A stretch of 64,000 bases of DNA from assembly GCF_034366625.1 (NCBI RefSeq), contig NZ_JAXMIH010000023.1, positions 1-64,000 on the forward strand, given 5' to 3'. Both the position numbers and the translations under genes were made by a program. Positions 1 to 8,950 of the stretch are shown one piece after another; the first letter of the stretch is position 1, and every line of letters starts with the position of its first letter. The notes under the pieces were generated by a model. It searched no databases and had not been told where the DNA came from. It saw only the letters and a program-made list of their open reading frames with translations. The stretch is from Prosthecobacter sp. (lineage in GTDB: Bacteria; Verrucomicrobiota; Verrucomicrobiia; Verrucomicrobiales; Verrucomicrobiaceae).

Positions 1-1
1 A

Positions 2-144
2 GCTCCCGAAGTGTAAGAGTTATGCATACCGCCGTGCGAAGGCGGAGGGTCGAGGTGCAGCGCTGTGCGCGATAACGCACGATCATGCGGTGCGGAGCAG
101 AAGATGCACAGCGGCAGGAGCCGCAACTCCTCGCGGGAGCACCA
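2..144 (+). tRNA. Divergent tRNA-like unit 1, anticodon GCG (Arg), with 66-nt T-loop insertion
   Basis: First unit visible; the array probably continues left of the window. The acceptor stem is GCTCCCG/CGGGAGC, discriminator A141, encoded CCA 142-144. Anticodon stem CCGCC/GGCGG encloses loop GTGCGAA, anticodon GCG at 36-38. The T stem is CGAGG (51-55) with CCTCG (129-133), and the T loop is 73 nt instead of 7. Removing 59-124 restores TGCAACT. The D loop has no GG. Functional aminoacylation is not established; the Arg identity is read from the anticodon only. Confidence 0.75.
59..124 (+). other. 66-nt structured T-loop insertion, copy 1
   Basis: Insertion inside the T loop of unit 1. It contains GTGCG/CGCAC, a GTGC/GCAC hairpin with conserved apical GGAGCAGAA, a GCT/AGC closing pair set, and hairpin GCGGC-AGGA-GCCGC. 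Related copies are at 1045-1110 and 1699-1764 with compensatory changes (GCT/AGC to GCC/GGC; GCGGC/GCCGC to GCCGC/GCGGC). Length is identical in all three. Whether it is removed from the RNA is unknown. Confidence 0.7.
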
Positions 145-150
145 CTTCAT

Positions 151-224
151 GCGGTCATCGTCCAGCAGCAGGACACGGCTATGCCAAGGCCGGAACGCCG
201 GTGCGACTCCGGCTGACCGCACCA
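151..224 (+). tRNA. Divergent tRNA-like unit 2, anticodon GCC (Gly)
   Basis: Acceptor GCGGTCA/TGACCGC is perfectly paired, discriminator A221, CCA 222-224. Anticodon loop ATGCCAA gives GCC. T arm GCCGG-TGCGACT-CCGGC has G at the position normally occupied by U55; D loop AGCAGCA lacks GG. The same two losses define the non-ribosomal peptidoglycan tRNA-Gly of staphylococci, which makes this unit a notable parallel, not proof of that role. Confidence 0.8.
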
Positions 225-233
225 TTTTCAAAT

Positions 234-309
234 TCCTCCGTGGCCGACACAGCAAGGCACCTGTCTCGTAAACAGGATCATGTGGGCGCGAACCCCACCG
301 GAGGATCCA
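234..309 (+). tRNA. Divergent tRNA-like unit 3, anticodon CGT (Thr)
   Basis: Acceptor TCCTCCG/CGGAGGA, discriminator T306, CCA 307-309. Anticodon arm CCTGT-CTCGTAA-ACAGG. T arm GTGGG-CGCGAAC-CCCAC: both 54 and 55 deviate from TT. The D stem GCCG/AGGC has one mismatch and a loop without GG. Confidence 0.78.
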
Positions 310-318
310 TTTCAACAC

Positions 319-393
319 TCCCTTCATAGTGTAACAGCAGCATTCTTCGTTGTGAACGAAGCGGCGCCGGGGCAGAACCGGCTGAGGGAACCA
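319..393 (+). tRNA. Divergent tRNA-like unit 4, anticodon GTG (His)
   Basis: Acceptor TCCCTTC pairs imperfectly with TGAGGGA (one mismatch, one G-U). Discriminator A390, CCA 391-393. Anticodon arm CTTCG-TTGTGAA-CGAAG. T arm GCCGG-GGCAGAA-CCGGC has GG at 54-55. D loop AACAGCA. No obvious G-1 needed by normal tRNA-His is visible. Confidence 0.72.
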
Positions 394-400
394 TTTCAAG

Positions 401-476
401 CGTGCGCACGGCGAAGTCGTCGAGCCAGTGGTTTGCAAGTCCATGCAACCCGGTGCGAGTCCGGGGCGCACGTCCA
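401..476 (+). tRNA. Divergent tRNA-like unit 5, anticodon GCA (Cys)
   Basis: Acceptor CGTGCGC/GCGCACG, discriminator T473, CCA 474-476. The anticodon stem (GTGGT/TCCAT) is weak, with loop TTGCAAG giving GCA. T arm CCCGG-TGCGAGT-CCGGG. The D loop is enlarged (GAAGTCGTCGA between GGC and GCC). Confidence 0.7.
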
Positions 477-484
477 CTTTTCAT

Positions 485-561
485 CGGATACGAGAGAGCC
501 AGCAGCACTCGCTTGCCTTGGAAGCAAGAGTAGCCCGGGGCAGCACCGGGGTATCCGACCA
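485..561 (+). tRNA. Divergent tRNA-like unit 6, anticodon TGG (Pro)
   Basis: Acceptor CGGATAC/GTATCCG perfectly paired, discriminator A558, CCA 559-561. Anticodon arm CTTGC-CTTGGAA-GCAAG. T arm CCCGG-GGCAGCA-CCGGG. D arm GAG/CTC with loop AGCCAGCAGCA, no GG. Confidence 0.75.
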
Positions 562-565
562 TTTT

Positions 566-640
566 TGGTCCGTAGCTCAACAGCAGAGCACCAGGCTCAT
601 AACCTGAAGGGTGCTGGTGCAACTCCAGCCGGACCGACCA
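566..640 (+). tRNA. Divergent tRNA-like unit 7, anticodon CAT (Met-type)
   Basis: Acceptor TGGTCCG/CGGACCG starts with a U-G pair; discriminator A637, CCA 638-640. D arm GCTC-AACAGCA-GAGC, anticodon arm CCAGG-CTCATAA-CCTGA, T arm GCTGG-TGCAACT-CCAGC. It lacks the three G-C pairs of an initiator anticodon stem, so elongator Met (or Ile after lysidine modification) is the likelier reading. Confidence 0.78.
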
Positions 641-649
641 TTTCAAAAC

Positions 650-725
650 AGCCTTGTAGCTCAATAGTGAGAGCATCCGCCTTTGAAGCGGAGGGTTGGT
701 GGTGCAAATCCACCCGAGGCTGCCA
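650..725 (+). tRNA. Divergent tRNA-like unit 8, anticodon TTG (Gln)
   Basis: Acceptor AGCCTTG/CGAGGCT with one G-U, discriminator G722, CCA 723-725. D arm GCTC-AATAGTGA-GAGC, anticodon arm TCCGC-CTTTGAA-GCGGA, T arm GGTGG-TGCAAAT-CCACC. Confidence 0.8.
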
Positions 726-732
726 GTTTCAT

Positions 733-808
733 GCCCGCGTAGTCCAACAGCAGAGACAACCGTCTCAGAAGCGGTCGAGTGCAGGTGCAACTCCTGCCGT
801 GGGCACCA
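733..808 (+). tRNA. Divergent tRNA-like unit 9, anticodon CAG (Leu), short variable loop
   Basis: Acceptor GCCCGCG/CGTGGGC, discriminator A805, CCA 806-808. Anticodon arm ACCGT-CTCAGAA-GCGGT. T arm GCAGG-TGCAACT-CCTGC; D loop AACAGCA. The variable region is only CGAGT, although bacterial tRNA-Leu is class II with a long variable arm. Confidence 0.76.
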
Positions 809-822
809 TTTCATCAAACAAT

Positions 823-898
823 GCTCTCGTAGCCCAACGCAGAGGCCGTCGCTTTAAACCCGGCGTCAGTGTGAGTGCGAGCCTCACCGGGAGCACGC
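823..898 (+). tRNA. Divergent tRNA-like unit 10, probable anticodon TAA (Leu), no encoded CCA
   Basis: Acceptor GCTCTCG/CGGGAGC, discriminator A895, but the next three bases are CGC instead of CCA. The anticodon stem GTCGC/CCGGC has a C-C mismatch next to loop TTTAAAC, the same mismatch as in unit 11, which favours reading TAA. T arm GTGAG-TGCGAGC-CTCAC. Short variable loop. A one-base shift of the loop would read TTA, so identity is uncertain. Confidence 0.65.
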
Positions 899-905
899 AC
901 TTCAA

Positions 906-981
906 GCCTGTGTAGTCCAATAGCAGAGACAGCCGCCTCAAAACCGGCTCAGTGTGAGTGCAACTCTCGCCGCAGGCACCA
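906..981 (+). tRNA. Divergent tRNA-like unit 11, anticodon CAA (Leu), short variable loop
   Basis: Acceptor GCCTGTG/CGCAGGC, discriminator A978, CCA 979-981. Anticodon stem GCCGC/CCGGC with C-C mismatch, loop CTCAAAA. T arm GTGAG-TGCAACT-CTCGC, D loop AATAGCA. Third consecutive Leu-type unit. Confidence 0.75.
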
Positions 982-990
982 TTTCAACAT

Positions 991-1131
991 GCTCCCGTAG
1001 CTCAATCATAGAGCACCGCGCTTCGAACGCGGAGGTTGAGGGTGAGCGCCGTGCGCGATAGCGCACATTCACGAGGTGCGGAGCAGAAGATGCACGGCCG
1101 CAGGAGCGGCAAATTCCTTCCGGGAGTGCCA
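991..1131 (+). tRNA. Divergent tRNA-like unit 12, anticodon TCG (Arg), with 66-nt T-loop insertion
   Basis: Acceptor GCTCCCG/CGGGAGT, discriminator G1128, CCA 1129-1131. D arm GCTC-AATCATA-GAGC, anticodon arm CCGCG-CTTCGAA-CGCGG. T stem GAGGG (1038-1042) with CCTTC (1116-1120). The T loop is 73 nt as in unit 1; removal of 1045-1110 leaves TGAAATT. The acceptor 5' strand equals that of unit 1, suggesting the two Arg units are related by duplication. Confidence 0.76.
1045..1110 (+). other. 66-nt structured T-loop insertion, copy 2
   Basis: Same length and layout as copies 1 and 3. Here the first hairpin is GTGCGC-GATA-GCGCAC, the closing pairs are GCC/GGC where the other copies have GCT/AGC, and the last hairpin is GCCGC-AGGA-GCGGC. 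These compensated differences support the drawn helices. Confidence 0.7.
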
Positions 1132-1135
1132 TTTC

Positions 1136-1188
1136 AAGGAGTGACGGCATCTTGCCGTCAGGCTGATGGCTAGAAGCCATCACTCCTT
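1136..1188 (+). repeat. REP-like palindromic element with three-way junction
   Basis: Between units 12 and 13. Outer helix AAGGAGTG (1136-1143) pairs with CACTCCTT (1181-1188); inside are GACGGC/GCCGTC and ATGGCT/AGCCAT hairpins. It is the only non-tRNA element in the array. Its palindromic form is typical of dispersed intergenic repeats; no second copy was noticed in this window. Confidence 0.5.
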
Positions 1189-1196
1189 GCTCCAAA

Positions 1197-1290
1197 GGAA
1201 CGTCAACCGGACCAGCGAACCGGGACTCGGTGCTAACGAGATCGTGCCGCCACCGCGCGGCATGAGGAGCATGTCCTCGGCGTTCCGCCA
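1197..1290 (+). tRNA. Divergent tRNA-like unit 13, anticodon GCT (Ser), class II
   Basis: Acceptor GGAACGT/GCGTTCC, discriminator G1287, CCA 1288-1290. Anticodon loop GTGCTAA on stem CTCG/CGAG. A long variable arm TGCCGC/GCGGCA is present, as expected for Ser. T arm TGAGG-AGCATGT-CCTCG. Retention of the Ser variable arm shows that class II structure is not generally lost in the array. Confidence 0.7.
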
Positions 1291-1299
1291 TTTTCACAA

Positions 1300-1376
1300 G
1301 CCCACGAATGCAAAGTCGTCGCGCAACAGGTCCTTCAAATCTGTCCTAGCGGGTGCGAGTCCCGCCGTGGGTGCCA
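1300..1376 (+). tRNA. Divergent tRNA-like unit 14, anticodon TTC (Glu)
   Basis: Acceptor GCCCACG/CGTGGGT, discriminator G1373, CCA 1374-1376. Anticodon stem ACAGGT/ATCTGT with loop CCTTCAA: position 33 is C, not the near-universal U. T arm GCGGG-TGCGAGT-CCCGC. D arm weak, no GG. Confidence 0.7.
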
Positions 1377-1385
1377 TTTTTCAAA

Positions 1386-1461
1386 GCTCATGTAGCCCAA
1401 CAGCAGAGGCACGACGTCGAGAGCGTCGCCAGTGCGGGTGCGATTCCTGCCGTGAGCACCA
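1386..1461 (+). tRNA. Divergent tRNA-like unit 15, anticodon GAG (Leu), short variable loop
   Basis: Acceptor GCTCATG/CGTGAGC, discriminator A1458, CCA 1459-1461. Anticodon arm CGACG-TCGAGAG-CGTCG, again C at position 33. T arm GCGGG-TGCGATT-CCTGC, D loop AACAGCA, variable loop CCAGT. Confidence 0.72.
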
Positions 1462-1464
1462 TTT

Positions 1465-1539
1465 CGGTCCAAAGCTTAGATAGCGAAGCAGCCGGCTTTT
1501 AACCGGCATAGCAGGGTGCATGTCCCTGTGGACCGACCA
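1465..1539 (+). tRNA. Divergent tRNA-like unit 16, anticodon TTT (Lys)
   Basis: Acceptor CGGTCCA/TGGACCG perfectly paired, discriminator A1536, CCA 1537-1539. D arm GCTT-AGATAGCG-AAGC, anticodon arm GCCGG-CTTTTAA-CCGGC, T arm CAGGG-TGCATGT-CCCTG. Confidence 0.78.
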
Positions 1540-1543
1540 TTTT

Positions 1544-1617
1544 CGCCCGTTGGTGAAACAGTATCACGTCTGGCCTACACCCAGAAATCGAGGGAGCAGC
1601 ACCTTCACGGGCGACCA
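1544..1617 (+). tRNA. Divergent tRNA-like unit 17, anticodon TAC (Val)
   Basis: Acceptor CGCCCGT/ACGGGCG, discriminator A1614, CCA 1615-1617. D arm GTGA-AACAGTA-TCAC, anticodon arm TCTGG-CCTACAC-CCAGA with C33, T arm GAGGG-AGCAGCA-CCTTC. Last free-standing unit; the Y-like RNA at 1625 follows after 7 nt. Confidence 0.74.
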
Positions 1618-1624
1618 AAAGCTT

Positions 1625-1830
1625 TGCGGCAGCGAGATCGGAGTTACTTCGTAGCTCATTAGTAGAGCGCTTGTTTTGCACAAGTGGCAGCGGGTGCGAG
1701 CGCTGTGCGCGTCAGCGCACAATCTTGTGGTGCGGAGCAGAAACTGCACAGCCGCAGGAGCGGCAGTCCCGCCAATGCGACCGGGAAACCGGGAGCATGT
1801 TCTCCGGTCACCTTTCTCCGCATTCTTTTT
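1625..1830 (+). ncRNA. Y-like RNA 1 enclosing a tRNA-like body
   Basis: Outer helix TGCGG/CCGCA (1625-1629, 1818-1822) and inner helix GATCGGAG/CTCCGGTC (1636-1643, 1802-1809) are separated by CAGCGA opposite ACCTTTCT. TACTTCG follows the inner helix. Within it lies a tRNA-like body in normal order: D arm GCTC-ATTAGTA-GAGC, an Ala(TGC)- or Gln(TTG)-like anticodon arm at about 1669-1685, and a T arm GCGGG/CCCGC with a 73-nt loop. It has no acceptor stem; instead a hairpin ATGC-GA-CCGG-GAAA-CCGG-GA-GCAT follows. A T run at 1826-1831 suggests 3' termination. The comparison to bacterial YrlA RNAs (Ro60 partners with tRNA-like domains) rests on architecture and proximity to the Ro60 gene. Confidence 0.7.
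1699..1764 (+). other. 66-nt structured T-loop insertion, copy 3
   Basis: Located in the T loop of the tRNA-like body in Y-like RNA 1; removal leaves TGCGAGT, the exact array consensus. First hairpin GTGCGC-GTCA-GCGCAC, closing pairs GCT/AGC, last hairpin GCCGC-AGGA-GCGGC. Confidence 0.7.
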
Positions 1831-1976
1831 TAACCACAACCCAATCCTATGAAAACGCATACCAGCTAGCCCGCGCATCTTCCCGCTGGCGTCACCTTGT
1901 TTGGAAGATCGCTGCCACATCCGTCCAGCGTGCCCGTGAGGGCAGAAAGCACGGATGATGTTTCGATCATTCCTAT

Positions 1977-2789
1977 ATGAAACTCGAACATCTCGAACGC
2001 GCGTTTGAATCCATCGGTGCGCGGCTTCGTGTGGAGGCTCCGGCTCGACGCTGGGGTACCAACACGGGTTACTCGCTCGATATCGGTCATGACCGCCATG
2101 GGCAGTTCTTTGCCCTGCGCGGAAATGATGCCAGCCTCGCTGCGGTGGAGTTCTCTCTGTTGAACAAACAGAAGGACGACCGTCACCTGCTTCTCCTCGT
2201 GAAAAACGAGGATGGCAGCCGCAAGGATCGTTTCCTCTGCGGTCACGACGAGCGTGAATGGTTTGTTGCCGCCGTCCCAAGCACTGCATCCACCGTGGTG
2301 CAGGCCAAGGAGGCGCTCAAACCTGCTCCCGTTCGTCAGGCGCAGGCTCGCAAGAGCCTGAATGCCCGGCAGGCCAACACCCGCCACAATGCGGCCTTCC
2401 GTCGCCAGGGAGAATGGTTCTTCGTGCCCGTGGACAAACCACTGGTCGTCGATTCCAAGCTCATCCTGCGCTGGGAGCCGATCTCTCGCGGAGGCGGCAG
2501 CAAGCCGCATCTCGTCGAGCAGATCTACCGCACGGGCGGCGAGGTCGTCTATGTCAGCCCAAAGCATCCCGGGGGTGTGACGGAAGCGCAGTACAAAAAA
2601 ATGCTCCGTAACAATCCCGAGGCCAAGCGGTGGTCCTGGCATCAGATGCGTCGCAATCCGGGCGTGTATGCACGCGGTTCGGTGCGTCATCCAGACCACG
2701 CCACCATCGTGCTTCACGACTGGTGCCATGTGCTGATGAACGAGGAGCATCGTGCTCCTTCGCGCCGCAACCTGGCCTTCCTCGATTGA
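1977..2789 (+). CDS. Conserved-looking protein of the RNA-repair module, function unknown
   Basis: 270 aa, soluble, no signal peptide or membrane segment. I do not recognise the family. The N-terminal third (residues 1-95) is mixed alpha/beta, a basic linker follows (about 105-140, rich in Arg, Gln, Ala), and the C-terminal part carries GEWFFVP, GGSKPH, GGEVVYV and a His/Asp-rich stretch near residues 235-255 (RHPDH, LHDWCH) that could bind metal or RNA. The ATG at 1977 opens 147 nt after Y-like RNA 1 and the gene lies between Y-like RNAs 1 and 2, so a role with Ro60 or tRNA-like RNA is likely by context. The basic linker fits RNA contact. Function is inference only. Confidence 0.8.
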   Translation: MKLEHLERAFESIGARLRVEAPARRWGTNTGYSLDIGHDRHGQFFALRGNDASLAAVEFSLLNKQKDDRHLLLLVKNEDGSRKDRFLCGHDEREWFVAAVPSTASTVVQAKEALKPAPVRQAQARKSLNARQANTRHNAAFRRQGEWFFVPVDKPLVVDSKLILRWEPISRGGGSKPHLVEQIYRTGGEVVYVSPKHPGGVTEAQYKKMLRNNPEAKRWSWHQMRRNPGVYARGSVRHPDHATIVLHDWCHVLMNEEHRAPSRRNLAFLD

Positions 2790-2815
2790 TTCAAGCCAAC
2801 GCGTTCACCCACTCG

Positions 2816-2863
2816 CGCGTACGGCATGCCTTTGGTGTGCCGCACGCGTCTTTCCATTTTCTT
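2816..2863 (+). terminator. Hairpin with T-rich tail after the unknown gene
   Basis: CGCGT-A-CGGCA (2816-2826) pairs with TGCCG-C-ACGCG (2838-2848), followed by a T-rich tract running into Y-like RNA 2. It could terminate the 1977-2789 transcript or be a processing signal ahead of the Y-like RNA. Confidence 0.45.
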
Positions 2864-2959
2864 TCTGAGGCAGCGAGGCCGGGGATACTTCGGAAACCAT
2901 GGGTTCAAATCCCATCATCCTGGCAACAGGATGAAGCCCCGACCGACTTCCTCCTCAGA
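2864..2959 (+). ncRNA. Y-like RNA 2, minimal tRNA mimic (T arm plus closed acceptor)
   Basis: Outer helix TCTGAGG/CCTCAGA (2864-2870, 2953-2959); inner helix GGCCGGGG/CCCCGACC with one mismatch; internal loop CAGCGA opposite GACTTCCT; TACTTCG after the inner helix. Inside are a T arm ATGGG-TTCAAAT-CCCAT and a closed stem CATCCTG-GCAA-CAGGATG equivalent to an acceptor helix capped by a GNRA loop. There is no D arm. The order, T arm then capped acceptor, is the circular permutation seen in YrlA-type Y RNAs. The 3' flank ATTCC is shared by several members. Confidence 0.75.
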
Positions 2960-2978
2960 TTCCATTTTCCAAATCCTT

Positions 2979-3120
2979 TCGCGGCAGTGAAGACAGGATT
3001 TCTTCGCATCCAAACGACACCAAACTGAAACGCGGTGCCCATGAGTTGGGGTTCGGCGCAAGCCGGACTCGGGTTCGATTCCCGGCTCCTCAGTTAGAGC
3101 CTGTCTGCTTTTCTCCGCGA
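2979..3120 (+). ncRNA. Y-like RNA 3 with T arm and GNRA hairpin
   Basis: Outer helix TCGCGG/CCGCGA (2979-2984, 3115-3120), inner helix GACAGG/CCTGTC (2992-2997, 3100-3105), internal loop CAGTGAA opposite TGCTTTTCT, then TTTCTTCG. Internal elements include a hairpin TTCGGC-GCAA-GCCGGA, a T arm with canonical TTCGATT loop on CGGG/CCCG, and a small CTC-AGTTA-GAG arm in D-arm position. Both flanking helices are perfectly paired while the sequence differs from the other members, which supports the fold. Confidence 0.72.
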
Positions 3121-3159
3121 TTCCTTTCATCCGCAGGCGCATTCAACCCGTGGTTCTCT

Positions 3160-3315
3160 TTTGGGGCAGTGAGATTGGAGTTACTTCGCTCTTAACGAAA
3201 AGGTCGCCGGTTCGAATCCGGCTTGGTCCTCGGACCAATAGCTCAGCGGTAGAGCATTTTGCAGCGACCGACAGAAATGCCGGTCCTGCTTTCTCCGGTC
3301 ACTTTTCTCCCCAAA
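3160..3315 (+). ncRNA. Y-like RNA 4, circularly permuted tRNA mimic
   Basis: Outer helix TTTGGGG/CCCCAAA (3160-3166, 3309-3315), inner helix GATTGGAG/CTCCGGTC (3173-3180, 3293-3300), internal loop CAGTGA opposite ACTTTTCT, TACTTCG next. The interior reads as a permuted tRNA: hairpin TTCG-CTCTTAA-CGAA (Lys-like loop), T arm GCCGG-TTCGAAT-CCGGC (3206-3222), acceptor TTGGTCC/GGACCAA joined directly through TC (3223-3238), then D arm GCTC-AGCGGTA-GAGC (3241-3255) with canonical GG. A further GACCG/CGGTC hairpin precedes the closing helices. This is the clearest tRNA mimic of the set. Confidence 0.82.
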
Positions 3316-3340
3316 TCCCTTTCCGAAAACGACAACACTC

Positions 3341-3440
3341 ATGCGGCAGCGATGCCGGGGGTTACTTCGGGATCTGACACGGTCCACAAGACCATCAGAG
3401 GCTCATCACGAGCCGTTTCCCTGGCAAACTTCCTCCGCAT
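3341..3440 (+). ncRNA. Y-like RNA 5, without T arm
   Basis: Outer helix ATGCGG/CCGCAT (3341-3346, 3435-3440), inner helix GCCGGGG/CCCTGGC with one extra C (3354-3360, 3419-3425), internal loop CAGCGAT opposite AAACTTCCT, then GTTACTTCG. The interior has TCTGA/TCAGA enclosing GGTC/GACC and a GGCTC/GAGCC hairpin instead of tRNA-like arms. It ends 17 nt before the Ro60 start codon, so it may also act as a 5' leader element through which Ro60 senses its own level. Confidence 0.68.
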
Positions 3441-3457
3441 TCCACCCAACCAACATC

Positions 3458-4885
3458 ATGAAATTCAACATCCTCAAGAAACGTCCTCGCGCCGACACGC
3501 TCAACCTCGCGGGTGGCGAGGCGTTCACCGAGACGCCGAAACTCGAGCTCGCCTCGATCATGCTCACGTCGATGCTCAAAGATGAGTTCTACCGCACGGC
3601 CGATGCCACCGCGCAACGCCTGCGCGAACTCATCACCGCGCAGAACGACAAGCGTTTCGTCGCCAAGGCCGCTCTGTATGCCCGCAAAGAAGCCGGCATG
3701 CGCAGCGTGAGCCACCTCACGGCCGCTGAACTGGCGAAAAGCGTGAAGGGCGAGGCGTGGACGGCGCGGTTTTACGATCGTGTCGTGCATCGTCCCGATG
3801 ACGCCATCGAGATTCTCGCGTGCTACCGTGGTGCGCATGGCAAAACGATTCCGAACTCGCTCAAAAAAGGCCTCGGCCGCGCCCTCGCGCGTTTCGACGA
3901 GTATCAGCTCGCGAAATACCGCAAGGATCGCGCCGACCTCTCGCTGGTCGATGTCGTGAACCTCGTTCACCCGCCTGCCACGGAAGCGCTTGGCAAACTC
4001 GTCAAAGGCACGCTCGCACCGGCTCAAACGTGGGAAACCAAACTCACGCAGGCCGGTGCTGCGGCGCAGAGCGAGGATGAACTGGCCGGTCTCAAACGCG
4101 AGGCATGGTCGGAACTCATCCGCATGCGCAAGCTCGGCTACTTCGCCCTGCTGCGAAACCTGCGCAACGTGCTCGAATCCGCTCCGGAGGCCGTGAACGA
4201 CGCCCTGGCGATGCTGCGCGATGAAAAACTCATCCGCAAATCGCTCGTGTTGCCATTCCGCTTCCAGACGGCGCTCGATGCCGTGCAGGCGAGTCATCTG
4301 CCACGTGCCGCCGATGCGCTCGCGGCCCTCAGTGATGCCGTGGACAGCTCGCTCGCGAACGTGCCATCCTTCCCAGGCCGCACGCTTGTCGCGCTTGATG
4401 GTTCCGGCTCCATGGTGGGTCGTCCGCTGCAAATCGGCTCGCTGTTTGCCGCCACGCTGCTCAAGGCGAACGACGCGGATGTCATTCTGTTCAGCGACGG
4501 CGCGAAATACGTCACGCTGAACAAGCGCGACAGCACGCTGTCGCTGGCGCAGTGGCTGCAAGGCCAGGCGCAGTCCGCCGGCACCAACTTCCACTCCATC
4601 TTTCAGTGCGCAGACCGGGCGTATGACCGTGTCATCATCCTCTCTGACATGCAGGGCTGGGTGGGACACCAGGCGCCCGTGGACACGTTCCGCCACTGGA
4701 AACAGCGCCACCGTTGCGATCCGAAAGTGTTCAGCTTCGACCTGAACGGTTACGGTTCCCTGCAGTTCCCAGAGCGCCAGGTTTGCTGCCTGGCTGGTTT
4801 CAGCGACAAAACGCTCGAAACCCTGAAACTGCTCGACACCGACCCAGGCGCACTGATCCGCGTGATCGAGGCTGTGGAGCTTTAG
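3458..4885 (+). CDS. rsr: Ro60-family ring protein (TROVE plus vWA domains)
   Basis: 475 aa. Residues about 1-330 match the bacterial TROVE/HEAT-repeat ring of Ro60; residues about 330-475 are a von Willebrand A domain with the MIDAS signature DGSGS and the downstream ILSDMQGW strand. Ro60 orthologs bind misfolded RNA through the ring hole and Y RNAs on the outer surface, and in Deinococcus a Y RNA links Ro60 to polynucleotide phosphorylase. The start ATG 3458 is chosen because the longer frame from 3341 overlaps Y-like RNA 5 and shows no TROVE similarity. No clear Shine-Dalgarno is visible. Five Y-like RNAs lie directly upstream, and a terminator follows at 4904. Family assignment is secure; partners in this organism are inferred. 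Confidence 0.95.
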   Translation: MKFNILKKRPRADTLNLAGGEAFTETPKLELASIMLTSMLKDEFYRTADATAQRLRELITAQNDKRFVAKAALYARKEAGMRSVSHLTAAELAKSVKGEAWTARFYDRVVHRPDDAIEILACYRGAHGKTIPNSLKKGLGRALARFDEYQLAKYRKDRADLSLVDVVNLVHPPATEALGKLVKGTLAPAQTWETKLTQAGAAAQSEDELAGLKREAWSELIRMRKLGYFALLRNLRNVLESAPEAVNDALAMLRDEKLIRKSLVLPFRFQTALDAVQASHLPRAADALAALSDAVDSSLANVPSFPGRTLVALDGSGSMVGRPLQIGSLFAATLLKANDADVILFSDGAKYVTLNKRDSTLSLAQWLQGQAQSAGTNFHSIFQCADRAYDRVIILSDMQGWVGHQAPVDTFRHWKQRHRCDPKVFSFDLNGYGSLQFPERQVCCLAGFSDKTLETLKLLDTDPGALIRVIEAVEL

Positions 4886-4903
4886 CGGAACTCAACTCAC
4901 ATG

Positions 4904-4938
4904 GCCCGCCGTCCATCATGGGCGGCGGGCTTTCTTTT
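4904..4938 (+). terminator. Rho-independent terminator after Ro60 gene
   Basis: GCCCGCCG (4904-4911) pairs with CGGCGGGC (4923-4930), followed by TTTCTTTT. It lies between the Ro60 stop codon and the Shine-Dalgarno of the next gene, so the nucleotidyltransferase and RtcB genes may be expressed separately or by read-through. Confidence 0.8.
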
Positions 4939-4963
4939 ACCATTGATAGAAAGGAGGTTCTCC

Positions 4964-5743
4964 ATGCAAAACAACGAAGTATTCCAGCGCGTCCGCAACG
5001 CGCTCGCTCGTCTCGAAACCGAGCGGAACGTGCGCGTGCTCTACGCGTGTGAAAGCGGCAGCCGTGCGTGGGGATTCGCCTCACATGACAGTGATTACGA
5101 CGTCCGGTTTCTTTATGTTCATCCAAGTGATTGGTATCTCTCAGTCGAAGATCGTCGAGACGTGATCGAGGAACCACTGACCGATGAACTGGATGTCAGC
5201 GGCTGGGAACTGCGCAAGGCGTTGCGACTGCTCCGCAAGAGCAATCCTCCGCTGCTCGAATGGCTGAAGTCGCCCGTTGTGTATCAGCACGACACTGTCT
5301 TCACCCGCGAGTTCGGTGAGCTCTCGGAGAGGTTCTATTCGCCTCGGCGATGCTTTGCGCACTACTTGCACATGGCGGCGGGCAACTGGCGTCATTACCT
5401 CGAAGGTCGCGAGCAGGTCAGCCTGAAGAAGTATCTCTACGTCTTCCGGCCTCTGCTCGCTTGCCGATGGATCGAGCGTTCGCTCGGTCAGGTGCCAATG
5501 CTCTTCAATGAGCTGGTCGAAAGTGTGCTCGAAGAACGCGAACCTCGCGACGCGCTCAACGCACTCGTGGCGCACAAGCAAGCTGGTGATGAACTCTCCG
5601 TCGCACCACCTGATGAAGCGCTTTCGCGCTTCGTTGTGCAGGAACTGCAGCGTCTGGAGGCTCTCAATGAGCCTGAGGATGTTGCAGGTGACGTGAGTGC
5701 CTTGAACAGCTTCTTCCGCCGCTATGCGCTGAACGGCGTCTAG
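4964..5743 (+). CDS. RlaP-type nucleotidyltransferase (DNA polymerase beta superfamily, COG3541)
   Basis: 259 aa. Start ATG 4964 has the best ribosome binding site in the module, AAGGAGG at 4951-4957. The polymerase-beta nucleotidyltransferase core is visible: GS at residues 32-33, DSDYD with D44 and D46 as metal ligands, and a likely third acid at D77. The rest is helical (about 85-259) with RKSNPPLLEWL, typical of the YcgL/RlaP family. RlaP is the RNA-repair-pathway nucleotidyltransferase family that comparative genomics places next to RtcB and TROVE genes; it may restore or protect RNA ends before ligation. Here it lies between Ro60 and RtcB. Substrate not shown by the sequence. Confidence 0.9.
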   Translation: MQNNEVFQRVRNALARLETERNVRVLYACESGSRAWGFASHDSDYDVRFLYVHPSDWYLSVEDRRDVIEEPLTDELDVSGWELRKALRLLRKSNPPLLEWLKSPVVYQHDTVFTREFGELSERFYSPRRCFAHYLHMAAGNWRHYLEGREQVSLKKYLYVFRPLLACRWIERSLGQVPMLFNELVESVLEEREPRDALNALVAHKQAGDELSVAPPDEALSRFVVQELQRLEALNEPEDVAGDVSALNSFFRRYALNGV

Positions 5744-5807
5744 TCGCCCGATTGCAAAATTGGCAGCTTGGAAGGGCCACAAACCCTTCCAAGCTGTATT
5801 CCGCGAC
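5743..5807 (+). other. Structured spacer before rtcB
   Basis: A perfect 12-bp hairpin AGCTTGGAAGGG/CCCTTCCAAGCT (5765-5776, 5784-5795, loop CCACAAA) sits within outer GTCGC/GCGAC. No T run follows, so a simple terminator is unlikely; a processing site, leader structure or small RNA are alternatives. The remaining bases up to 5903 hold the 15-mer at 5813-5827 repeated before the first HNH gene. Confidence 0.55.
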
Positions 5808-5903
5808 CACACAAGAACGAACACTGCTGTCGGGAACCTCGTGCCCATTTCCAATCCTCCATTTTTTCATCACTCCCGTTCTCCAAATCCAATCTCCATT
5901 CCC

Positions 5904-7322
5904 ATGAAAACTCAAGATCTCATCCGCCTCGGCGTGCCTCAGGGCGCGGCGCTCAAGTCTGGCATGGAATTCATCGCGAATTTCATCCGCCAGGGTGGTG
6001 AACCTGCGCGCCTCGAAGAAGAACTCGGCGCGATCATCGCCAAACCGGAATCGTTTCTCGGCGATCCGCTGCGCGAGGCGTTCGCGCGCGATCTTTATGC
6101 GCCTGCCTACAAGCAGCGCGATGTGCTCGCGCCTTGGGCGCAGTGGGGTTCGGGTCTTGATGCGGCTGCGGTGCAGCAGATGGCGAACGCGTGTGCGCTG
6201 CCGGTTGCGGTGGCGGGTGCGCTCATGCCGGATGCGCATGTCGGCTACGGACTGCCAATCGGCGGTGTGCTGGCCACGGAAAACTGCGTGATCCCTTACG
6301 CGGTCGGTGTGGACATCGCGTGCCGCATGCGTCTCACGGTTTACGACCGCAAGGCGAGCACCATCGCGGGCCAGAAGGACCGTCTCGCGAACATCCTGGA
6401 GGATGAAACGCGCTTTGGCATCGGTTCCACGTTCAAAGACCGTCGCAATCACGACGTGATGGACGAGGACTGGGATGTCTCGCCGATCACGCGACGTCAC
6501 AAGGACAAGGCGTGGTCGCAGCTCGGGACGAGCGGCTCGGGTAACCACTTTGTGGAGTTCGGTTCGTTCACTGTGTCTGCTGAAGAGGCCGTCGCGCTGA
6601 AGGAATCCGGTTTCGACATCAATGCGGGCGAGTACATCGCGCTGCTCTCGCACAGCGGTTCGCGCGGTGCAGGTGCGCAGGTGTGCCAGCATTACAGCCG
6701 CATCGCGATGGACCGCCGTTACGATCTGCCGAAGGAGCTGAAGCACCTCGCGTGGCTCACCTTTGAGGAAGAAGCCGGTCAGGAATACTGGGCGGCGATG
6801 AACCTCATGGGCCGCTACGCTGCGGCGAATCACGCGCTCATCCACAAGCACATCGCGAAGAAAGTCGGCGCGCATGTCATGCTCGACATCGAGAACCATC
6901 ACAACTTTGCCTGGAAGGAAACACACGTCGTGAACGGCGCGGAGCGCGAGGTCATCGTGCATCGCAAAGGCGCGACGCCGGCCGGCGAAGGTGTGCTTGG
7001 GGTGATCCCCGGCTCGATGGCGACGCCAGGCTATGTGGTGCGCGGCAAGGGGAAACCCGAGTCGCTCCACAGCGCCTCGCACGGTGCGGGCCGCGTGATG
7101 AGCCGCTCGAAGGCGAAGGAGAGCTTCACCTGGAGCGCGGTGAAGAAGCAGCTCGCCGCCGCCGGTGTGGAACTCCTCAGCGCAGGCATCGACGAGGTGC
7201 CTGGCGTTTACAAAGACATCCACGGCGTCATGGCCGCGCAAACCGACCTCGTCGAAGTCCTCGGCAAGTTCCAGCCCCGCATCGTGAAGATGTGCCCGGC
7301 GGGCGAGCAGGCGGAGGACTGA
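5904..7322 (+). CDS. rtcB: RNA-splicing ligase RtcB
   Basis: 472 aa, normal length for the long RtcB form. RtcB joins RNA 2',3'-cyclic-phosphate or 3'-phosphate ends to 5'-OH ends using GTP and Mn. Signature blocks in order: DAHVGYGLPIGG (about residue 111), VGVDIACRM with the metal-binding Asp and Cys, LGTSGSGNHFVEF, LSHSGSRGAG, and the C-terminal SASHGAGRVMSRSKA holding the guanylated His. ATG 5904 is used; the upstream extension from 5760 covers the spacer hairpin and is not RtcB-like. It follows RlaP by 160 nt and precedes the HNH genes. No RtcR activator or RtcA cyclase gene is visible in the window. Confidence 0.97.
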   Translation: MKTQDLIRLGVPQGAALKSGMEFIANFIRQGGEPARLEEELGAIIAKPESFLGDPLREAFARDLYAPAYKQRDVLAPWAQWGSGLDAAAVQQMANACALPVAVAGALMPDAHVGYGLPIGGVLATENCVIPYAVGVDIACRMRLTVYDRKASTIAGQKDRLANILEDETRFGIGSTFKDRRNHDVMDEDWDVSPITRRHKDKAWSQLGTSGSGNHFVEFGSFTVSAEEAVALKESGFDINAGEYIALLSHSGSRGAGAQVCQHYSRIAMDRRYDLPKELKHLAWLTFEEEAGQEYWAAMNLMGRYAAANHALIHKHIAKKVGAHVMLDIENHHNFAWKETHVVNGAEREVIVHRKGATPAGEGVLGVIPGSMATPGYVVRGKGKPESLHSASHGAGRVMSRSKAKESFTWSAVKKQLAAAGVELLSAGIDEVPGVYKDIHGVMAAQTDLVEVLGKFQPRIVKMCPAGEQAED

Positions 7323-7341
7323 AGAACGAACACCGCAGCAT

Positions 7342-7439
7342 GGAGCGCGAGTGTGTCGCAGACCACTCGCCTCTTTTGCGGCCCAGCGATCACGAATCAT
7401 CACTCAAGTGGCGAGTAGGCTTTGCCATACTCGCGCTCC
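7342..7439 (+). other. Structured 98-nt spacer between rtcB and first HNH gene
   Basis: GGAGCGCGAGT (7342-7352) is the exact complement of ACTCGCGCTCC (7429-7439), an 11-bp closing stem. Inside, GCGAGTG can pair with CACTCGC, and ACTCGCC with GGCGAGT, so alternative folds compete. It lacks the internal-loop signature of the five Y-like RNAs. It may be a leader, a processing element or a further small RNA. Confidence 0.55.
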
Positions 7440-7463
7440 GATAAATCGAACACAGAACCACTC

Positions 7464-8045
7464 ATGAACGACATCCTCACCAAATCCACCGTTCTCGTGC
7501 TCAACCGCAACTGGCAGGCCATCGGCGTCAAAACGCCCATGGAAGCCTTCAGCATGATCGCGAGCGGCGCAGCCACCGCGCTCGACATCGAAACAGGCGG
7601 ACACATTCGTCCTGTGACATGGACGGAATGGCTGACGCTGCCCGTGCGCGAAGGCGACAACGTGATCGGCACCGTGAAAGGGCCGGTGCGCGTGCCATCC
7701 GTGCTCGTGCTCGCCAAATTCGACAAGGTGCCCAAAAAGCGCCCGAAATTCGGCGTGCGCGGCATCTGGGAACGTGATGGTGGCGTGTGCCAGTACACGG
7801 GCCGCAAGCTGCGCCCGCACGAAGGCAACATCGACCACGTCGTGCCGCTTTCGCGTGGCGGACCCACGTCGTGGGACAACTGCGTCCTCGCGGACAAGCG
7901 CATCAACAGCCGCAAAGGCTCCAAACTGCCTGAAGAGGCCGGTTTGAAGCTGCTGCGCCGTCCTGCGGTGCCGCGTGAGCTACCCGTGACGCTCCTGATC
8001 CGCAACACGCATCAAATGCGCGACTGGGAGATGTTCCTTTCGTAA
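7464..8045 (+). CDS. HNH endonuclease family protein, copy 1
   Basis: 193 aa. N-terminal half (1-100) begins with TKSTVLVLNRNWQAI and is shared with copy 2; the C-terminal half has the HNH core CQYTGRKL, NIDHVVPLSRGG and a downstream Asn (about residues 110-150), followed by INSRKGSKLPEEAGLKLL. The metal-binding His and the strand-cutting HNH geometry appear intact, but the second half of the usual CxxC zinc pair is CQYTG. Start ATG 7464 is chosen because it aligns exactly with the start of copy 2. The family is widespread with poorly defined targets; being last genes of an RNA-repair block, RNA or damaged nucleic acid is a possible target (inference). Confidence 0.88.
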   Translation: MNDILTKSTVLVLNRNWQAIGVKTPMEAFSMIASGAATALDIETGGHIRPVTWTEWLTLPVREGDNVIGTVKGPVRVPSVLVLAKFDKVPKKRPKFGVRGIWERDGGVCQYTGRKLRPHEGNIDHVVPLSRGGPTSWDNCVLADKRINSRKGSKLPEEAGLKLLRRPAVPRELPVTLLIRNTHQMRDWEMFLS

Positions 8046-8052
8046 GCCGGGT

Positions 8053-8260
8053 CTTACTCTTCCTCCTACTCCTCCTCCCTTCGAGGAGCGCCATACCCCC
8101 GATTCAGGGAGGACGAGGAGGAGTAAGAGGCGGAGGAGGATTTCATGCAGTCGCGTCTGGCGAAACAATCTTGCCACTTGGCAAATCGCCAGGACTCGCC
8201 AGCATAAGCGTCCAACGTCAAGGACGCACACCGCCGGGTGGGATGTCCTTCGTGCCGAAA
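8053..8260 (+). other. Structured spacer between the two HNH genes
   Basis: Four hairpins in 208 nt: a long pyrimidine/purine stem (CTTACTC 8053-8059 to GAGTAAG 8121-8127 with CTCC/GGAGG blocks), CTGGCGA/TCGCCAG (8157-8163, 8186-8192) enclosing TTGCC/GGCAA, GCGTCC/GGACGC (8208-8213, 8222-8227) and AGGAC/GTCCT. This density is unusual for a spacer. The first stem may attenuate read-through; the others could form a small RNA. Confidence 0.5.
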
Positions 8261-8281
8261 TTCCAACCTTAGGAGCTGTGC

Positions 8282-8887
8282 ATGAATGAAGTGTTGACCA
8301 AAACGACCGTACTGGTGCTGAACCGGCACTGGCAGGCCATCGACTCGAAAACGCCCATCGAGGCTTTCAGCATGATGGCCGCAGGCAATGCCACGGCGCT
8401 GGACATTCTGGGCACTGGTGACATGCGACCCGTCACCTGGGAGGGCTGGCTGGAACTGGAAGTGCGTGATGGCGACAACCGCATAGGCACAGTGCATGGC
8501 CCGGTGCGGGTGCCTTCGGTGCTGGTGCTGGCCCGCTTCGACAAGGTGCCGAAGCGCCGCCCGAAATTCTGCGCGAAGGCAATCTGGGAACGTGATGGCG
8601 GTGTGTGTCAGTACACGGGTCGCAAGCTCAAGCCGAACGAAGGCAATATTGATCACATTGTGCCGGTGTCACGCGGTGGAGCGAGCAACTGGGAGAACTG
8701 CGTGCTGGCGGATCGCAAAATTAACAGCCGCAAAGGCAACAAGCTGCCCGAAGAGGCCGGTTTGAAGCTGTTGCGTCGTCCGGCGGTGCCGCGTGAGGTG
8801 CCGGTGACGCATCTCATCAAGAATCATCACAAGGTGCGTGATTGGGAGATGTTTCTGTCCGGCGGAACGGGTGTGTTTGAGGTTTGA
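8282..8887 (+). CDS. HNH endonuclease family protein, copy 2
   Basis: 201 aa with AGGAG about 7 nt before ATG 8282. It is a close paralog of the preceding HNH protein over its whole length (VLVLNRHWQAI, RPVTWEGWL, GPVRVPSVLVLARFDKVP, NIDHIVPVSRGG, KINSRKGNKLPEEAGLKLLRRPAVPRE), with a short extra tail GGTGVFEV. The HNH core DH...N is intact. Tandem duplication followed by divergence is the simplest origin. A strong terminator follows directly, ending the plus-strand module. Confidence 0.88.
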   Translation: MNEVLTKTTVLVLNRHWQAIDSKTPIEAFSMMAAGNATALDILGTGDMRPVTWEGWLELEVRDGDNRIGTVHGPVRVPSVLVLARFDKVPKRRPKFCAKAIWERDGGVCQYTGRKLKPNEGNIDHIVPVSRGGASNWENCVLADRKINSRKGNKLPEEAGLKLLRRPAVPREVPVTHLIKNHHKVRDWEMFLSGGTGVFEV

Positions 8888-8888
8888 A

Positions 8889-8950
8889 CAAGGAGAGGGG
8901 CCATCCTGGCCCCTTTTTTCCATACAGGGATCAGGATGATCCCTCTCCTT
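8889..8950 (+). terminator. Bidirectional terminator closing the RNA module
   Basis: Core hairpin GGGGCC-ATCCT-GGCCCC (8897-8913) is followed by six Ts. A wider inverted repeat AAGGAGAGGG (8889-8898) with CCCTCTCCTT (8941-8950) surrounds it. The genes on both sides converge here, so it can serve both strands. Confidence 0.88.

Follow-up and report, generated by a model that had tools for sequence, protein, structure and literature searches.

Both tRNA arrays that carry HNH genes and operons that join Ro60 to the RNA ligase RtcB are already known. In Anabaena, the repressor TrcR is common to a silent operon of 26 tRNAs, to rtcB, and to an HNH gene, and a slipin gene also appears in the TrcR list (PMC10272220). 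HNH genes within tRNA arrays, together with an antidefence idea, have been published (PMC5966550, PMC12803027); Ro60, a Y RNA, and RtcB have been described in one operon, with the proposal that YrlA inhibits a nuclease competitively (PMC7790460); and jumbo phages encode a TROVE protein, RtcB, RlaP, and many tRNAs (PMC7824862). We examined a locus of Prosthecobacter sp. (assembly GCF_034366625.1; 6.65 Mb in 30 contigs) in which a tRNA array, Y RNAs, Ro60, RlaP, RtcB, and two HNH genes lie together. The window, i.e., the whole stretch of DNA that was analyzed, is the first 64 kb of contig NZ_JAXMIH010000023.1 (C23), starting from base 1. Most tRNAs of the array were found to depart from ordinary tRNAs at the elbow, where G18 with U55 is replaced by A18 with G55 and C56 is kept.

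In ordinary tRNAs, position 55 of the T loop is a pseudouridine, and its partner is G18. According to a review of the elbow, pseudouridine 55, which contacts G18, is universally conserved (PMC4810234). tRNA-Pyl and many mitochondrial tRNAs do without this contact (PMC7609411), and one tRNA-Arg is the target of a described toxin that cleaves its T loop next to the pseudouridine (PMC9086364). No A18-G55 class appeared in the available parts of reviews of non-canonical tRNAs, the elbow, and the T loop (PMC7609411, PMC4810234, PMC7912444). Among the literature matches listed, which covered few subscription papers, none joined tRNA arrays with Ro60 and Y RNAs and none described an A18-G55 elbow.

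The elbow and identity signals of the array tRNAs

The array is broken by the edge of C23, and its remainder forms the start of contig C14 on the minus strand. A structure scanner detected 15 plain cloverleaves with scores of at least 49 between positions 151 and 1617 of the window, compared with 0, 1, 2, 0, and 0 cloverleaves at a score of 40 in five shuffles of the same stretch; ARAGORN reported 8 tRNAs, and the Rfam tRNA model gave 11 matches in the window at its curated cut-off. A 45-point call at 1121-1189, which overlapped other features, was set aside, as were the C14 and C23 calls scoring 34-45. Together, C14 and C23 carry 25 plain cloverleaves scoring at least 48 and 3 with inserts. 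Elsewhere in the genome there are 41 further tRNA hits; the closely packed array genes repeat anticodons of this ordinary set and cover all 20 amino acids, although Ser and Tyr rest on weaker calls (49-50 points). Unless stated otherwise, cloverleaves were counted at a score of at least 52, a threshold at which the Ser and Tyr tRNAs with long arms in this genome go uncounted; T54, C56, R57, and A58 add to the scanner score, and the base at 55 adds nothing.

G55 was found in all 25 plain cloverleaves of this array scoring at least 48 and in 21 of 21 at a score of at least 52, and the G18 with U55 (pseudouridine) expected of ordinary elongator tRNAs was lacking from its elements. The ordinary tRNAs of the same genome carried T55-C56 and a GG D loop in 40 out of 40 fetched (of the 41 hits, one of 34.8 bits was left out). 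When the array was combined with those of 20 relatives, G55 was detected in 315 of 353 cloverleaves and T55 in the other 38. Four control arrays (Nostoc, Mycobacterium, and Variovorax plasmids and cyanophage S-CBWM1) had T55 in 103 of 106 elements; 100 of the 106 were of the GG/T55 class and 2, each from the Nostoc plasmid, of the AG/G55 class.

The two positions were found to change together. When the D-loop class was assigned by a string test (GG, else AG) rather than by alignment, 1,548 distinct elements fell into AG/G55 (702), GG/T55 (636), GG/G55 (72), AG/T55 (7), and other combinations (131); 1,338 fit one of the two pairings and 79 the reverse, and AG was the D-loop class of most G55 elements. 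The four control arrays are part of this pool, and some genomes are represented in both L033-L052 and L101-L163. The same pairing was observed within the 55 loci that hold both classes (AG/G55 560, GG/T55 336, GG/G55 57, and AG/T55 3); only identical elements were removed and related sequences were counted many times, and therefore the Fisher p for these mixed loci is not a true probability. By locus, the distribution was bimodal, with a majority of either G55 or T55. C56 was retained in 806 of 852 G55 elements, and the pair 54-58 varied in step with the elbow class, being T-A in 659 of 674 T55 elements and distributed among T-A (479), G-G (136), A-T (121), and C-A (70) in the G55 elements. 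These paired 18/55 and 54/58 changes match what would be expected of a different, conserved tertiary contact. The first-pass annotation of this DNA had spoken of abnormal tRNAs, a description that gives way here to one coordinated difference shared by most array RNAs; the covarying 18/55 contact was absent from that annotation and is, we think, the most important feature of the locus.

Amino acid identity signals, assigned to synthetases from general knowledge, were counted in G55 elements pooled over related loci. G3:U70 was present in 39 of 39 Ala elements and 10 of 813 non-Ala elements; G73 in Asp (33/33), Asn (27/27), and Trp (23/23); U73 in Cys (38/38); C1:G72 in Pro (47/48); A73 in Leu (93/95); and a long variable arm in Ser (19/19) and Tyr (15/15). 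The Glu signal G1:C72 is a poor test because neither class carries it as a rule (3/37 and 8/43). CCA was encoded in 714 of 852 G55 elements. Judged by these signals, the array appears to consist of real tRNAs rather than of tRNA-like debris, and the identity signals are largely kept, though less strictly for Leu, His, Phe, and Thr. Multiplication of one tRNA with changed anticodons was considered and rejected, as the likeness of isotypes outside the elbow is 0.42 in the array and 0.46 among ordinary tRNAs. Only 6 of 20 array tRNAs match their own isotype best among the ordinary tRNAs of the host, and a recent origin from host tRNAs is therefore unsupported.

Neighboring genes, Y RNAs, and related loci

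The layout claimed by the first-pass annotation was recovered (Table 1): Ro60, RlaP, RtcB, and two HNH genes were identified by Pfam, all on the plus strand and with RlaP and RtcB as neighbors, and are followed by a hairpin with a T run, while the array and Y RNAs beside them were found by structure scans and the Rfam tRNA and YrlA models. The YrlA match (46.1 bits, E 2.4e-8) lies below the curated cut-off of 69, and the pattern scan listed the final hairpin on the minus strand only. A further terminator-like hairpin, with 13 pairs and a T-rich tail, lies between Ro60 and RlaP at 4903-4931; therefore, Ro60 and the genes on the RlaP side may not share one simple transcript. The promoter scan returned a chance-level result (2 found versus 1.8 expected). 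PADLOC and NCBIfam indicated similarity of the HNH domain only for the two HNH proteins. The 270-aa protein had no match in Pfam, NCBIfam, or PADLOC, and its predicted structure (mean pLDDT 71) had no PDB match at an E-value of 0.001 or better. This protein is conserved and sits between the array and Ro60 or close to both. The closest named Ro60 relative in the genome collection was 94% identical and came from a Prosthecobacter metagenome-assembled genome.

Table 1. Features of the window and the evidence by which they were assigned
Feature	Position	Strand	Evidence
tRNA array, part on C23: 15 plain cloverleaves and 2 with T-loop inserts	2-1617	+	Structure scans, Rfam tRNA
tRNA-Arg(GCG), T-loop insert of ~65 nt	2-144	+	Insert-aware scan, score 62
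T-loop insert copies	60-124, 1046-1110, 1700-1764		
tRNA-Gly(GCC), T loop TGCGACT	151-224	+	ARAGORN, structure scan
tRNA-Thr(CGT), T loop CGCGAAC	234-309	+	ARAGORN, structure scan
tRNA-His(GTG)-like, T loop GGCAGAA	320-393	+	Structure scan
tRNA-Cys(GCA), T loop TGCGAGT	401-476	+	Structure scan
tRNA-Pro(TGG), T loop GGCAGCA	485-561	+	Structure scan
tRNA-Met(CAT), T loop TGCAACT	566-640	+	ARAGORN, structure scan
tRNA-Gln(TTG), T loop TGCAAAT	650-725	+	ARAGORN, structure scan
tRNA-Leu(CAG), short variable loop	733-808	+	ARAGORN/structure scan
tRNA-Leu(TAA), short variable loop	823-895	+	ARAGORN/structure scan
tRNA-Leu(CAA), short variable loop	906-981	+	ARAGORN/structure scan
tRNA-Arg(TCG), T-loop insert	991-1131	+	Insert-aware scan, score 63
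tRNA-Ser(GCT)-like, long variable arm, T loop AGCATGT	1197-1290	+	Structure scan, weaker, score 49
tRNA-Glu(TTC)	1300-1376	+	ARAGORN/Rfam/structure scan
tRNA-Leu(GAG)	1386-1461	+	ARAGORN/Rfam/structure scan
tRNA-Lys(TTT)	1465-1539	+	ARAGORN/Rfam/structure scan
tRNA-Val(TAC)	1544-1617	+	ARAGORN/Rfam/structure scan
Y-RNA-type outer stem, apparently holding a Gln-like tRNA with T-loop insert	1623-1812	+	Repeat families D7 and D5; fold; by eye
270-aa protein, family unrecognized	1977-2789	+	ORF without Pfam match
Y-RNA-like element, T arm only	2866-2945	+	Repeat family D7, fold; no Rfam YrlA match
YrlA-type Y RNA; tRNA-like part with ordinary elbow (TTCGAAT, GG)	3172-3289	+	Rfam YrlA
Possible further Y-RNA-like element	3345-3432	+	By eye and fold
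Ro60 (TROVE domain)	3458-4885	+	Pfam TROVE 3.9e-20; 72.9 bits (cut-off 23)
RlaP nucleotidyltransferase	4958-5743	+	Pfam RlaP 2.5e-89; open reading frame (ORF) 4901-5743, later start 4958 likely
RtcB RNA ligase	5904-7322	+	Pfam RtcB 4.7e-87
HNH protein 1	7467-8045	+	Pfam HNH_4
HNH protein 2	8282-8887	+	Pfam HNH_4
Terminator-like hairpin (8896-8914) and T run to 8919	8896-8919	+	Read directly in sequence

The Y RNAs carry the opposite elbow to their tRNA neighbors, as the tRNA-like part (D and T arms) was ordinary in 9 of 9 examined. The YrlA model matched all seven further bacterial Ro60 loci scanned and none of three bacterial loci that have the array without Ro60. A Y RNA accompanies Ro60 in the bacterial loci checked, and Ro60, RtcB, and RlaP are optional.

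In all, 141 genomes of the order were searched with the TROVE profile, giving 40 matches including our own; the loci of 20 relatives were fetched, and 19 genomes were left out whose match was of E 3.2e-6 or weaker and covered only the second half of the profile. The first-pass annotation had named the lack of a conserved association in relatives as grounds for refutation; the association was found to hold, with at least three cloverleaves in 19 of the 20 Ro60 loci (the exception being a 4.3-kb contig) and HNH genes in 18. The other genes were less constant: RlaP in 7, RtcB in 6, and the 270-aa protein in 8 (one a fragment), such that RtcB-RlaP is no fixed partner of the array. None of the fetched stretches exceeded 19.5 kb, and contig edges cut some of them short, so absence of a gene from a relative's locus is uncertain. 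The array, Ro60, RlaP, RtcB, and HNH occurred together in 3 of the 20 relatives, two of which have two HNH genes. Within the genus, 11 of 48 genomes, including our own, have this Ro60, and three genomes without it (and without a YrlA match) combine the array with RlaP, RtcB, and two HNH genes on a single stretch. As the full set is found in only 3 of the 20 relatives and the three other genomes of the genus lack Ro60, the locus is better seen as a modular neighborhood than as a single self-contained system.

In the named genome collection, 63 Ro60-related loci were identified, 41 of them from Verrucomicrobiota by title; at least three G55 cloverleaves were near Ro60 in 34 of the 41. The other 22 (31-53% identical; Saprospiraceae, Chitinophagales, Rhodothermales, Thermoanaerobaculia, SAR202, Chryseobacterium, and others) had no G55 cloverleaf, and their tRNAs, where present, were T55. 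Brevifollis gellanilyticus and Chthoniobacter flavus Ellin428 are among the carriers of G55 arrays. Several further observations were made in these loci. Chryseobacterium and related Bacteroidota (L154-L163) have a more distant Ro60 (31-35%); relatives of RlaP and RtcB lie close to it in 8 of the 10 loci, and the fetched stretches contain no cloverleaf. A slipin-like membrane protein, recognized by eye, recurs near Ro60 and the array (L142 11556-12663 and 11 other loci), and a GOLLD RNA match (97.7 bits, cut-off 150), truncated by the contig end, lies upstream of a G55 array at L120 1-371. The elbow was also considered as a mark for one of the neighboring proteins, and each candidate was rejected: for Ro60, since arrays without it keep the G55 elbow; for RtcB, since G55 phage loci such as L185 and L274 have no RtcB/RlaP match in the fetched stretch; and for HNH, since HNH also accompanies T55 arrays.

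Both elbow classes are present among phages. Seven IMG/VR loci are mainly G55 after removal of identical elements, and two of these stretches (L185 and L274) have portal and tail or head genes. L185 carries Ro60 and HNH relatives, G55 in 31 of 35 cloverleaves, a tmRNA (1191-1545, 95 bits), and an RNase P RNA-like match (7473-7686, 46.9 bits, cut-off 100). L217 and L219 share similarity with the bacterial locus (RtcB 73-74% and HNH 69% identical, and RlaP 81% in L217) and may be bacterial in origin. Two huge-phage stretches with a Ro60 or HNH relative had G55 in 0 of 76 cloverleaves.

In the genus, various array tRNAs have a structured insert of ~65 nt that follows C56 of the T loop. Nine distinct copies of one family were found, and the family is seen in T loops at L298-L299 and L302-L305. 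In an insert-aware scan of the arrays, 10 inserts were assigned to the T loop, 3 to the anticodon loop, and 4 to the D-loop model, with none in the variable loop, compared with 0 in three shuffled arrays; the D-loop cases resemble a tRNA fused to the sequence upstream of it. When used as a DNA query, the insert matched 16 of 56 genomes (own included, some matches weak). Each of nine insert loci fetched had 3 to 20 cloverleaves, nearly all G55, with the insert family in the T loop in six, and the copies found within an anticodon loop in C14 and L038 are inverted. The inserts may be small mobile palindromes or removable introns.

A proposed reserve tRNA set and its alternatives

The reading we favor, with a confidence that stops a little short of even, is that the array represents a second tRNA set with a rewired elbow, held in reserve for protein synthesis and adjoined by repair modules. 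Speaking for it are the complete cloverleaves, the largely kept identity signals, the mostly encoded CCA, the paired elbow change, the isotypes being no closer to one another than ordinary tRNAs are, the persistence of the elbow in arrays without Ro60, the Anabaena operon, and the existence of a toxin that cuts a T loop. The set would be produced when ordinary tRNAs are cut or disabled, by analogy with induction in Anabaena. The attacker would be a factor that recognizes the ordinary elbow as such or the U54 and pseudouridine 55 within it, and the rewired elbow would hide the reserve set both from this attacker and from enzymes that act on U55, such as TruB. The reserve tRNAs would be used in translation. 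The Y RNAs, with their ordinary elbow, might be bait for the attacker or provide a grip for Ro60 in handling damaged ordinary tRNAs; missing nucleotides would be put back by RlaP, and RtcB would reseal the RNA. The HNH proteins would most likely help the array DNA to spread or rearrange. A bolder form of the proposal, which we regard as somewhat doubtful, is a second elbow standard: A18-G55 sets for all 20 amino acids, common to phages and Verrucomicrobiota, would be competent for translation and unseen by readers of the ordinary elbow, with a switch to them when the ordinary tRNAs are destroyed and with Y RNAs as bait.

A number of observations weigh against the reserve-set reading. Identity signals are looser for some G55 isotypes: the usual long variable arm of Leu is present in just 22 of 95 (T55 class, 22/47), C73 of His in 20 of 41 (17/20), A73 of Phe in 22 of 32 (10/11), and the Thr end pairs in 22 of 49 (44/44). 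U8, A14, and U33 are retained in 632, 709, and 750 of the 852 G55 elements, respectively, and some array tRNAs have inserts in the T loop or anticodon loop. In 44 G55-type loci, the elements with T55 or another base concentrate in Arg (25), Met (21), and Glu (15). The tmRNA of L185 has an ordinary T loop although the phage array is G55, and the YrlA model gave no match in the three viral Ro60 loci scanned. Furthermore, the described toxin that cuts in the T loop acts on one tRNA, not on all (PMC9086364).

An unlikely alternative is that of a mobile, phage-type array which spreads with an HNH gene and aided phage or plasmid translation, with the repair genes nearby merely where genes for translation and RNA collect. 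HNH relatives do lie in or beside plasmid and phage arrays, an association already published (PMC5966550, PMC12803027), and phages with portal, head, or tail genes are among the carriers of G55 arrays; however, Ro60 recurs with the array across the Verrucomicrobiota loci at the frequency given above, and the paired elbow change is left unaccounted for. Mobility and a reserve function can both be true. Of the roles that the first-pass annotation had offered for the array (substrates, decoys, or replacement tRNAs), replacement is favored because the amino acid identity signals are largely kept, and the other two are less so. On that view, anticodon nucleases would bind or cut the array RNAs, or Ro60 would bind them, and the ordinary tRNAs would thereby be spared. 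Anticodon loops of many isotypes do lie alongside repair genes, and YrlA was elsewhere proposed to inhibit a nuclease by competition (PMC7790460). We consider this improbable: an anticodon-loop decoy needs no G3:U70, G73, U73, or CCA, yet all are kept, the elbow persists in arrays without Ro60, and a Y RNA with an ordinary elbow makes the better bait. The elbow could instead mark charged tRNAs as excluded from ordinary translation and destined for other aminoacyl-tRNA reactions. In staphylococci, the D loop is altered in some of the tRNA-Gly that serve the cell wall, and identity signals kept alongside an altered elbow agree with such a use; nonetheless, a near-complete amino acid set is hard to explain in this way, no gene for such a reaction was recognized by eye among the conserved neighbors, and the idea is highly improbable. 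Decay of tRNA genes without function is scarcely credible, for while inserts, looser identity signals, and low tRNA-model scores in some elements point in that direction, the paired 18/55 and 54/58 changes, the isotype-specific signals fixed over many loci, and the several cloverleaves still found in nearly all of the relatives' Ro60 loci do not.

If the reserve-set reading is correct, whole tRNA sets break the pseudouridine-55 rule in a paired way, and the contact can be rewritten across amino acids. The locus would then point to a novel attack on the ordinary elbow, offer a natural test of the need for the elbow and for pseudouridine 55, and give tRNA arrays, whose role is mostly unknown so far, a testable purpose.

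Comparison with known systems

Long tRNA arrays, including the Anabaena trn operon and mycobacterial plasmid or phage units, resemble this locus in their dozens of redundant tRNAs and a close HNH gene, and the Anabaena operon shares the further likeness of common control with rtcB; they differ in that the four control arrays are almost all ordinary at the elbow, and in that Ro60 and Y RNA go unmentioned in the available parts of the array literature. The rsr-yrlBA-rtcBA operons likewise place Ro60, a YrlA-type RNA, and RtcB side by side (PMC7790460), to which this locus adds a large tRNA array, RlaP, and HNH genes. The RNA-repair genes of jumbo phages combine, as here, RtcB, RlaP, a TROVE protein, and many tRNAs (PMC7824862), but a changed elbow is unmentioned in the part of that paper available, and the two huge-phage stretches were free of G55, unlike other phages, which have it. 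Finally, tRNA-Pyl and mitochondrial tRNAs share with the array the loss of the contact between G18 and pseudouridine 55 (PMC7609411); the loss or replacement occurs case by case there, whereas one specific replacement extends across all 20 amino acids here.

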